A stretch of DNA of 64,000 bases from Alphaproteobacteria bacterium. GTDB taxonomy: Bacteria; Pseudomonadota; Alphaproteobacteria; Caulobacterales; Aquidulcibacteraceae. Position 1 is the stretch's first letter. Each line of letters opens with the position of its first letter. This document shows positions 57,601 to 60,474 of the stretch, in pieces. The stretch covers positions 2,501 through 66,500 of the forward strand of contig JAPLOL010000044.1 in the NCBI GenBank assembly GCA_026400735.1. Reading direction: 5' to 3'. The position numbers and the translations under genes were made by a program. Under the pieces are notes generated by a model. That model searched no databases and had not been told where the DNA came from. It saw nothing but the letters and a program-made list of their open reading frames with translations.

Positions 57601-57655
57601 GCTGGCGCCGCCGCTTTCGTTTTGTATGGTTCGCCGAATTTCCTGGGGGCGCTCC

Positions 57656-58225
57656 ATGCGTTTTGTTCTGATTGCGGCAGCGCTCGCGCTGAGTGGGTGC
57701 ACGTTCTCCACCAACACCGCAGGAACACAGAATGCATCGGGCTGCGAGCGGACGGCGACACACAACGTGACTTGGTCGACAGACGGCGCGGACGACACGA
57801 TCACCACGCGCTCTGATGGACCAACTTGCGCACAAGCCGTCGTCACGTTTGTGGCGCGCAACTCCGCCGGTGATCCGCTCTGGGTGTTTGCGTCGACCTA
57901 TTACGACATGACCTCTGGCGGCATTCCGCCTGAAGGCGCGCCCGCAATCACTGACGAGCAGATGGATACGTTCCTAGCGGGATGGGCTAACGTGACGTTG
58001 CAGCGCTCCGGCGAATTGCCCGCATGGCGCGAAGGCTTCGACTCGTTGAGCGCAAGCGCACAGACGTTTTCCTACGACACGCCGTTTGACCGCGAAACGT
58101 ACGAAGCGATGCGAGCACGCAATCTGCAGATGATCTGCTATGCCGCAGCCGTCGAGGCGACCCAGTGTCTGATCATTGATCCATCTTCGCACGCGCCGAT
58201 TATGATCGTGGCGTACGGTCCGTGA
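57656..58225 (+). CDS. Lipoprotein, first of three tandem paralogs
   Basis: 189 residues from ATG 57656, with GGGGGC upstream. Lipobox ALSGC (Cys15). The mature part: TITTRSDGPTCAQAVVTF, DPLWVFASTYYD, LPAWREGFDSL and YEAMRARNLQMICYAAAVEATQCLI. The same elements recur in the next two genes. Unknown function; probably periplasmic. Frame upstream of 57656 is antisense to the patatin gene end. Confidence 0.65.
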   Translation: MRFVLIAAALALSGCTFSTNTAGTQNASGCERTATHNVTWSTDGADDTITTRSDGPTCAQAVVTFVARNSAGDPLWVFASTYYDMTSGGIPPEGAPAITDEQMDTFLAGWANVTLQRSGELPAWREGFDSLSASAQTFSYDTPFDRETYEAMRARNLQMICYAAAVEATQCLIIDPSSHAPIMIVAYGP

Positions 58226-58740
58226 TGCGGCTCCTGCTTCTCGGCGCGCTTTTGATCGCGACGTCTTGCACATCGCAAGCCGCACGCTGCGACTTCTCGC
58301 ACACGCGCGAGGTGTCATTCACTGGCGGCAGCGCGTCGGATCGCATCACCGTGCGGACGTTCGGCGTCTCCTGCGACAAGGCCATCGGCGTCTACGAGAT
58401 CATCGACGGCGAAGGGCATCCCATTTGGGCCTGGGCGACACCGCTGCCGCGCGCGTTTGGCGATGCGTTCAAAGCCGAGGAACCCGAACACGTGGAGACG
58501 TTCCTGGAAGAGTGGTCACAGCCTGTAATTATTTCGACGCAGGAGGCGCCGGAATGGGCTCTGCTGGCGCCAGGCCAAACAACTCTGGACGAACTCACAT
58601 ATACCGACATCCGCGCGCGCGACCTGCCGATGTTATGCCACTTTTCGGGAACAGCACGGCAGACGTGCGTGTTTTGGGAGCCTGTCGCCGGCGGCGCAGG
58701 ACATCTGTTTGATCGTGACGTCGAGGAGACGGTGGAATGA
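58225..58740 (+). CDS. Lipoprotein, second tandem paralog
   Basis: 171 residues from ATG 58225 overlapping the previous stop (TGATG); GTG 58222 is possible. Lipobox IATSC. Shared pattern with its neighbours: RITVRTFGVSCDKAIGVYEIIDGEGHPIWAWATPLP, PEWALLAPG and YTDIRARDLPMLCHFSGTARQTCVFW. The next gene starts in an ATGA overlap. Unknown function. Confidence 0.65.
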   Translation: MRLLLLGALLIATSCTSQAARCDFSHTREVSFTGGSASDRITVRTFGVSCDKAIGVYEIIDGEGHPIWAWATPLPRAFGDAFKAEEPEHVETFLEEWSQPVIISTQEAPEWALLAPGQTTLDELTYTDIRARDLPMLCHFSGTARQTCVFWEPVAGGAGHLFDRDVEETVE

Positions 58741-59318
58741 TGCGAGTGGGCGTGAGTTTGTTAGCGTTGGGTTTGGTGGCATGCACGCCCCCCGCACCGG
58801 AGGCGCCCGCAACGACGACGACCGCCGAGATTCCGGCAGCGAGTACGTCCGGTCGTTTGGGATGCGATGCAAACTCCTCACGCGATTGGTCTGCCGTTGG
58901 CAGCCAGTATTACATCGTTGAGGCCGAGGCGCATGGCGCGACCTGCGGTGAAGCCACGGCGACGATCCGCATCAAGTCGACCGAAGGCGCAGTGCTGTTC
59001 ACGCACGATTACCCAACCCGCGACGTGTCGCTCGCGTTCAATCCGAACAGCGATCAAACCGGGCTCCGTGAAGAGATCGAATCGTGGACGCAGAACGTTT
59101 CCGAGACCGGCGCGGCGAACGAACTCCCGGCCTGGCCCGCGGGCGCAGCCGCCCCTCCAGGGTTTACACCTGCCGTCGCGCGCAACGTCTATGAACAAGC
59201 GCGCGGCAATCAGAGCGCCCTCTTCTGCTATCCTGACGGTGGCGAAAGCAACGCGTGCGTCGCAGTTGCGGGCACGAGAGCGACGCTCCTAGGCTCGAAA
59301 ACGCCAGAGCGCGGCTAG
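58737..59318 (+). CDS. Lipoprotein, third tandem paralog
   Basis: 193 residues. Lipobox GLVAC then a Thr/Pro linker. Pattern of the family: EAEAHGATCGEATATIRIKSTEGAVLFTHDYPT, LPAWPAGAAAP and NVYEQARGNQSALFCYPDGGESNACVAVAG. More diverged than the other two. The three genes form one co-translated unit. Ends 4 bases into the convergent LprI-like gene. Confidence 0.65.
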   Translation: MMRVGVSLLALGLVACTPPAPEAPATTTTAEIPAASTSGRLGCDANSSRDWSAVGSQYYIVEAEAHGATCGEATATIRIKSTEGAVLFTHDYPTRDVSLAFNPNSDQTGLREEIESWTQNVSETGAANELPAWPAGAAAPPGFTPAVARNVYEQARGNQSALFCYPDGGESNACVAVAGTRATLLGSKTPERG

Positions 59319-59773
59319 TTCGCGATCAGGCCGATTGCGCGGGAGGACGTAAGCTCAAGGTCGCAGGTAACGCGATCGTATTGCTCGCCTGACCCGCCAC
59401 CGAACTCGTACGCGCGATACGAGCACTCCGCTTCGCGCCAATCTGTCCATGCGTTGTTCGCCGCGGCGAGTAACGCGCCGTCGGCGGGATCGGCGGCGGT
59501 GATGCGCTCCGTCGCTGCTTCGATGATTGCGTTCCAGGCCAACGACTCCGATGAGCGGCAGAGTACGTCTGTCATCGAATTGGAACCGCCCTCCGCCTCA
59601 ATGCACACGCGCGTCATGACGCCAACGCATTGCTGCAGCGCTACACGGTCACCGCTCGCCTGAGCGATACACGCGTCAAGGATGCGCGCATCAGATTGCA
59701 GCACATCGGCGCGCGCCGGCAGCGTGACGCAAGCGGTGACCAACAACGCAAGTGCGAAAAACAATTGCCGCAA
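59315..59773 (-). CDS. LprI-like (lysozyme-inhibitor-type, DUF1311) protein
   Basis: 152 residues with signal peptide (VTACVTLPARA-DV). The domain has the Cys pattern of DUF1311: LDACIAQASGDRVALQQCVG, SLAWNAIIEAATE, NNAWTDWREAECSYRAYEF and CDLELTSSRAIGLI. Mycobacterial LprI inhibits lysozyme; here the role is not shown. Upstream region 59774 onward contains the plus-strand unit described below. Confidence 0.78.
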   Translation of the reverse strand: MRQLFFALALLVTACVTLPARADVLQSDARILDACIAQASGDRVALQQCVGVMTRVCIEAEGGSNSMTDVLCRSSESLAWNAIIEAATERITAADPADGALLAAANNAWTDWREAECSYRAYEFGGGSGEQYDRVTCDLELTSSRAIGLIAN

Positions 59774-59838: not shown

Positions 59839-59866
59839 TTGCGAGACGTCGCGAAGCACTTATCTT
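59839..59866 (+). promoter_or_regulatory. Possible promoter TTGCGA-N16-TATCTT
   Basis: A sigma70-like -35/-10 pair with 16-base spacer would start transcription near 59873. It reads into the small ORF at 59916 and ends at the strong terminator at 60015. Read by eye only. Confidence 0.35.
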
Positions 59867-59915
59867 GGTAGTCCTCCAGCGACTTCCGCTGGTTTTGCAA
59901 GAAAGGAGGTGATCC

Positions 59916-59984
59916 ATGTCTCATTGTCACTCTGTAGGGGCACTGTCGCAGGCTTGGACCACCTCGGGTGGGACCAGCGCTTAA
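59916..59984 (+). CDS. 22-codon ORF with 17-nt complement of the 16S tail
   Basis: ATG at 59916 follows AGAAAGGAGGTGATCCA (59900-59916), a perfect 17-base complement of the 3' end of bacterial 16S rRNA. The peptide would be MSHCHSVGALSQAW plus TTSGGTSA. No homology is known to me. Upstream is a hairpin CCAGCG-acttc-CGCTGG followed by TTTT (59876-59896), and CCTCC (59873-59877) could pair with the GGAGG of the site, so an on/off fold is conceivable. A strong terminator lies 31 bases after the stop. It may be a leader peptide, an sRNA that binds the ribosome, or both. Confidence 0.45.
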   Translation: MSHCHSVGALSQAWTTSGGTSA

Positions 59985-60014
59985 GCTTTGCCCCGCACGG
60001 GACAGACAATGGAA

Positions 60015-60046
60015 GGGCCGCATCGGGATCCGATGCGGCCCTTTTT
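60015..60046. terminator. Strong terminator
   Basis: GGGCCGCATCGG with CCGATGCGGCCC, then TTTTT on the plus strand; on the minus strand the AAAAA/CTTCC side is used by the DUF3008 gene. Confidence 0.9.
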
Positions 60047-60047
60047 G

Positions 60048-60365
60048 CTAGCTGCGCTTCTTAGCTTTTTTTGCCGCTGATTTCTTCGCAGCGCTCGTCG
60101 GCCTGGAGGCGTTCTTCGCGCGCGTTTTGGCTGCCTTCTTCGCGGCACGCTTGCGGGCAGCCTTCTTCGCCGGGATCGGACTATCAGGCGTGTAGTTCGG
60201 TTTGCCTTTGCGCTTAGTCGAGGCGAATTCGTCGAGCTGCTTTTCGCTCATTGAATCGTACATCTGCTTGGACGCGCCCTTGAGCGCGGAACGTTTGGTC
60301 TCTCCGCGTTTGGCTGAGAGCGCCGCGCCGGCGGCTTTCTGTTGGGCTTTGGACTTTGCGGGCAT
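60048..60365 (-). CDS. DUF3008-like protein with Lys/Ala-rich tail
   Basis: 105 residues from ATG 60365, with GGAG upstream (AAGGAGATGCTC). N-terminal MPAKSKAQQKAAGAALSAKRG... and LKGASKQMYDSMSEKQLDEFASTKRKG are DUF3008. The last 45 residues are a histone H1-like run of AKKAARKRAAKKAAK-type repeats, so a nucleic-acid-binding role is plausible. A longer frame upstream is not supported. Confidence 0.8.
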   Translation of the reverse strand: MPAKSKAQQKAAGAALSAKRGETKRSALKGASKQMYDSMSEKQLDEFASTKRKGKPNYTPDSPIPAKKAARKRAAKKAAKTRAKNASRPTSAAKKSAAKKAKKRS

Positions 60366-60474
60366 TGAGCATCTCCTTGTGGAGTGAATGCGCGCAGCGA
60401 TTTTGCCGTTCCGAAAAAAGATGAGGGCGGGATCGCTCCCGCCCTCTGGCTCACCAGCCAAGAGAAATCTGTGT

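Follow-up and report, generated by a model that had tools for sequence, protein, structure and literature searches.

CC2171 (RF01867) is filed in Rfam under the sRNA gene type as "caulobacter sRNA". A family member of Mesorhizobium huakuii, MH_s33, is among the predicted sRNAs with RNA-seq support (PMC5596092). A paper describing the function of CC2171 was not found in our literature search, and searches on the motif and on "MSHCH" returned nothing useful. Two other described systems concern extended ribosome pairing and short coding transcripts. As outlined in the report on Staphylococcus aureus, extended Shine-Dalgarno (SD) sites pair with the anti-SD over an extended length at translation starts, those of small ORFs included (PMC13009471), and Pos19 of Rhodobacter sphaeroides is introduced in its abstract as a small coding RNA (PMC5036791). 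Here we describe a compact unit that carries an exceptionally long complement to the 16S rRNA tail, located in a 64,000-nt stretch of alphaproteobacterial DNA (the window), and compare it with these systems.

The predicted transcription unit and its 16S-tail complement

The predicted transcript of ca. 174 nt, a divergent CC2171 (RF01867) RNA, lies at 59873–60046 (+) according to the RF01867 match, the fold, and same-genus conservation. The preliminary description had bounded this unit by a possible promoter at 59839 and a strong terminator, and both boundaries were predicted again. A promoter-like pair, TTGCGA (59839–59844) and TATCTT (59861–59866) with a 16-nt spacer, occupies 59839–59866 (+), and the predicted transcription start near 59873 was placed from this pair. 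TATCTT was found again in most same-genus copies, and the upstream regions of 143 family members, which are related to each other, outscored shuffles as promoters (9.9 vs 8.6, z 12.7). A 5′ leader hairpin (CCAGCG..CGCTGG, 59876–59892, +) was predicted by folding and is a feature of the own genus, whose copies carry similar inverted repeats. The terminator (60012–60046, +) consists of a 15-bp stem (60012–60026/60030–60044) and a U tract; an equivalent hairpin was present in the aligned copies, including a similar one in the same-genus copies whose 3′ end was read, and a generic terminator scan did not have the 60012–60044 hairpin among its predictions. The predicted fold of the whole unit had a z of −4.96 relative to shuffles. 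The window copy is probably transcribed as a small RNA.

The unit is flanked by an LprI-domain gene in divergent orientation (59315–59773, −) and by a DUF3008 gene in convergent orientation (60048–60461, −). Farther upstream, three neighbouring small ORFs of 190, 172, and 193 aa with lipoprotein-like starts and without a Pfam match were found at 57653–59318 (+), and the third of them is kept near the element throughout the genus.

AGAAAGGAGGTGATCCA at 59900–59916 (+) complements 17 nt of the alphaproteobacterial 16S 3′ tail. This match, reported in the preliminary description, was confirmed by genome and window scans, family comparison, and duplex energy. The 17-mer occurs once in the 3.58-Mb draft genome (control matches, 0), and it is the single site within the window even when up to three mismatches are allowed (0.05 expected). 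At the seven other GGAGGTGATC sites of the genome, the complement reaches just 10 nt. The organism's own 16S 3′ end was not found in the searched genomes, those of its own genus included, and we therefore infer the match of AGAAAGGAGGTGATCCA to its own ribosome. As a stand-in for the own-genus 16S end, we used plasmid-borne 16S copies from Rhodobacter, Rhizobium, Azospirillum, Sphingomonas, and others. When the 3′ end ...GCGGCTGGATCACCTCCTTTCT was checked against them, 25 matches were listed, every one alphaproteobacterial, and among these listed matches the end ...GGCTGGATCACCTCCTTTCT, which AGAAAGGAGGTGATCCA complements, was 100% identical in 25/25 copies.

The computed energy of the duplex between the SD strand and the 16S tail was −26.8 kcal/mol vs −11.6 kcal/mol for a plain SD core. 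When the window RNA was co-folded with the 16S end, the predicted gain was 29 kcal/mol, and the terminator and the long-range helix described below (A:A′) were predicted to remain formed; over 137 copies, the predicted net co-fold gain averaged about −26 kcal/mol. A compact, independent transcript unit bearing an extreme 16S-tail complement is well supported.

Membership in the CC2171 family and distribution

A permissive Rfam scan placed RF01867 at 59898–60042 (61.4 bits, E 1.2e-12), with the window copy aligned over model positions 1–159. Since this score is below the RF01867 gathering cut-off of 75 bits, default Rfam scans miss the copy, and our default scan of the window gave no match. Relatives exceed the cut-off (e.g., L068 with 119.8 bits), a graded series of copies links the window copy to RF01867 members, and the window copy has the CAUUGUC/GACAAUG long-range helix and the terminal hairpin of RF01867. 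Of 386 genomes sampled across the class, 89 had a match to RF01867, and just 13 of these 89 reached the cut-off, indicating that the cut-off is strict rather than that the window copy is false; a threshold of 75 bits hides most family members. We conclude that the unit almost certainly belongs to the CC2171 (RF01867) family despite falling short of the curated cut-off. The RNA gene is real and deeply conserved, it diverges from the catalogued family to which it is related, and it has relatives across Alphaproteobacteria; the earlier statement that it has no known relatives was wrong.

A BLAST-type search of 30 same-genus genomes found the element in 28, its own genome among them, and, once the element was reduced to its core, the matches extended to further genera and families within the order. 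Scanning named genomes with a core pattern matched at least 120 stretches, and the matches listed include Methylobacterium, Bosea, Microvirga, Brevundimonas, Roseomonas, Kaistia, Rhodospirillales, and others. Among 14 named control genomes, Caulobacter vibrioides alone matched RF01867. The strict core pattern was present in 81 of 386 genomes of the class, with no matches of the reversed control, and a phylum-wide sample of 398 genomes yielded 75 alphaproteobacterial matches and one genome of another class; this sole match outside the class, AAGGAGGTGATCCTTTTGTC, is without the start block. These results indicate that the element occurs across Alphaproteobacteria and is essentially absent from the other sampled classes.

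No class-wide conserved neighbours were found; the neighbours change at the genus level, and the element therefore behaves as an independent gene. In some genomes (G663, G670, and G525; loci L257 and L258), two or three copies of the element were present. In Bosea, the element adjoins a gene that, judged by eye from the sequence, looks RNase R-like, and in Microvirga one that looks peptide-release-factor-3-like (e.g., the Bosea/Microvirga loci L175 and L178). These neighbours are translation or RNA-decay genes, and the link is one at the genus level only. A phage search gave no match for the element. The core pattern was seen in two IMG/VR contigs (L333 and L334), which may be chromosomal flanks of prophages.

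Conserved SD block, long-range helix, and reading frame

We compared 214 copies of the family. GAAAGGAGGTGATCC, corresponding to 59901–59915 in the window copy, was near-invariant, and the bases on either side varied. A complement lost between conserved flanks had been named beforehand as the result that would speak against the unit; the opposite was observed, the 15-nt core being the most conserved part. GAAAGGAGGTGATCC is the exact complement of the entire free 16S tail GGATCACCTCCTTTC after helix 45, with the helix boundary as generally described for 16S. The conserved complement spans the tail from helix 45 to its last or next-to-last base, and a start codon (GTG, ATG, or rarely TTG) follows the block at normal SD spacing.

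The second conserved part is the long-range helix. Strand A (CATTGTC, 59922–59928, +) covers codons 3–5 of the ORF, and strand A′ (GACAATG, 60005–60011, +) lies just before the terminator; the pair probability is about 0.95. CATTGTC/GACAATG is the version of the main subclass and part of the Rfam consensus structure. In other lineages, the strands differ and still pair. Both strands of L248 are altered in step (ATGAGATT/AATCTCAT), and CATGAAT/ATTCATG, GTGATT/AATCAC, and CACCAAA/TTTGGTG were found in L249, L250, and L319, respectively. Across 72 distinct A types, own partners gave better duplex energies than swapped partners (z −13), and the same held for the 41 A types without CATTG (z −11), both values coming from related copies and thus not being independent; none of 20,000 permutations reached either value. 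A count of ungapped, fixed-length helix pairs was less clear than this duplex-energy comparison (7.06 matched vs 6.32 mismatched, pairs of 10) because the helix registers differ. A covaries strongly with A′.

As stated earlier, the complement opens a 22-codon ORF, MSHCHSVGALSQAWTTSGGTSA (59916–59984, +), which appears in the ORF list and shares the family constraint on frame and length. The family ORFs are mostly 20–26 codons long. In 178 representatives, the coefficient of variation of the stop distance was 0.29 in frame 0, compared with 1.04 and 0.63 for the two alternative frames, and the ORF stop preceded the terminator in every one. The reading frame and its length are under selection, and a family filed as sRNA carries a constrained reading frame. 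The peptide sequence itself changes almost freely. Own-genus substitutions by codon position were 44/50/37, showing no third-position excess, and no such excess was found in two of three other groups; purifying selection on the peptide was accordingly not detected. The peptide subclasses (MSHCH..TW..AS, MSSE..EQPS, and others) have Met-Ser alone in common, and Pfam and NCBIfam searches with six family peptides gave no match. A toxin-like ORF, one of the readings in the preliminary description, is unsupported: the peptide varies between lineages, does not resemble the hydrophobic small toxins, and is without a family match.

Within the ORF, TGGACCACCTC (59955–59965, +) mimics the 16S tail (TGGATCACCTC) and could form a duplex with the SD strand. 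In the window copy, this duplex was calculated at −15.9 kcal/mol (z −2.8 when dinucleotides were shuffled and −2.9 when codons were). Such a mimic is frequent in the family ORFs; the mean duplex z was −1.35 over 171 copies, 41% of them at p ≤ 0.05, in copies that are related and values that are not independent. Pairing of the SD strand with the mimic would cross A:A′ and would therefore require an alternative fold or a pseudoknot; in the window copy, the closed fold was predicted to be favoured over it by 7.8 kcal/mol, and many copies show it weakly or not at all.

Some copies depart from this plan. In L251, L281, and L284, the same ultra-strong SD block precedes a longer ORF of 55–58 aa whose product resembles a secreted protein with a signal peptide. 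In the divergent copies L278, L279, L285, L286, L303, and L306, the SD block is kept before other ORFs (e.g., VSTSKELLAAVAALGIADVSEGHLV), suggesting a superfamily wider than RF01867 describes.

Possible engagement of the 30S subunit and comparison with known systems

Among the three readings in the preliminary description, an sRNA that engages the 30S subunit fits best, as far as can be judged from sequence. Our leading reading, at about even odds, is that the unit is an autonomous small RNA gene engaging free 30S subunits through its full-tail complement and acting as their sensor, decoy, or regulator. In the ca. 174-nt transcript, 15–17 nt would be available to pair with the single-stranded 16S tail over its full length, and a free 30S subunit could dock there through a duplex whose computed strength is more than double that of a plain SD core. 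Translation of the ca. 22-codon ORF by the docked subunit might then be governed by the A:A′ helix, which joins codons 3–5 to the pre-terminator region, and possibly also by the internal mimic competing for the SD strand. A docked subunit would meet a helix that begins six bases downstream of the initial nucleotide of the start codon, so it could dock in one step and initiate in another. The docked RNA would be translated briefly, and the conserved output would be engagement of the 30S subunit, not a particular peptide. Conservation of the tail complement, the helix, and the ORF length contrasts with a nearly unconstrained peptide, from which we infer that selection maintains this engagement. 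Titration, sensing of free 30S subunits, and a signal in trans are candidate effects in the cell. By ribosome profiling, Caulobacter ncRNA regions, among which CC2171 is not named, were mostly untranslated (Schrader et al., PMC4117421), which counts against translation. More tentatively, and with somewhat less than even confidence, we propose a class-wide regulatory RNA directed at the ribosome itself, whose role would be to cap the free 16S 3′ tail or to sense it. The covarying start-codon helix and the mimic would form its switch, and a throw-away ORF would be translated as its read-out or reset.

The strongest alternative, which we consider unlikely but serious, is a small mRNA in which the strong SD secures high output of a functional 20–26-residue peptide, with an RNA structure that serves only to stabilise or tune this message. 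The start codon at normal SD spacing and the constrained in-frame stop distance agree with this, and an SD of such strength could do no more than drive translation. However, a normal SD would suffice for that, whereas the conserved complement coincides exactly with the tail at both ends; moreover, the own-genus third-position excess is absent and the subclasses have just Met-Ser in common. In the main subclass, with its common pattern MSHCH..TW..AS, 90 of 98 copies have the Trp codon in frame, and a functional small peptide may be made there. That this codon is kept for RNA pairing alone was considered as well and is not proven, the motif being out of frame in just 8 of 98 copies.

Less probable still, though more so than the readings that follow, is an ordinary base-pairing sRNA acting on mRNAs through other conserved stretches, the SD-like block being a binding site or incidental. 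Such a role would suit a stand-alone unit catalogued as sRNA with a strong terminator, and the invariant TCTCATTGTC could act as a seed. But A covaries with A′ between lineages, as expected of an internal helix and not of a fixed target, and the invariant part is the one matching 16S. A guide or checkpoint for 16S 3′-end maturation, which would test the completeness of the tail by full pairing, would account for a complement spanning helix 45 to the last or next-to-last base; we consider it very unlikely, as it leaves the ORF constraint unexplained and its sole link to a maturation gene is the RNase R-like neighbour recognised from sequence in Bosea only. An attenuator or leader peptide for a downstream gene, also suggested earlier, is highly improbable: a short ORF followed by a terminator has the expected form, but the unit ends in that terminator, the next gene (60048–60461, −) is convergent here and downstream genes are so in most genus-level clusters, and with neither a same-strand downstream gene at the locus nor a conserved one elsewhere this candidate was rejected. 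A chance match in intergenic DNA is refuted by the class-wide conservation, the 0.05 sites expected in the window with three mismatches, and the absence of control matches, and its probability is negligible.

If engagement of the free 30S subunit is the right reading, Alphaproteobacteria, whose genes are often SD-less (24.6% of Caulobacter CDSs have an SD; PMC4117421), would maintain a single gene, its SD near-maximal, to gauge or brake their ribosomes, and an RNA family for which we found no function in the literature searched would gain a concrete target, the 16S tail of free 30S subunits.

Pos19 and the predicted window transcript are both short and alphaproteobacterial, likened here by description only, and the abstract on Pos19 makes no mention of a 16S-tail complement (PMC5036791). 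The extended SD of S. aureus is presented in outline as a general mRNA feature in a Gram-positive organism (PMC13009471). Unlike those sites, the alphaproteobacterial element is one stand-alone gene per genome with a whole-tail complement and a long-range helix. Our analysis adds to the Rfam entry the full-tail 16S complement, the constraint on the ORF, the helix strands that differ between lineages, and the distant relatives of MSSE type, none of which we found described in the literature searched. The 5′ block, the CAUUGUC/GACAAUG helix, and the terminator are common to RF01867 and the window copy, and the two are homologous.
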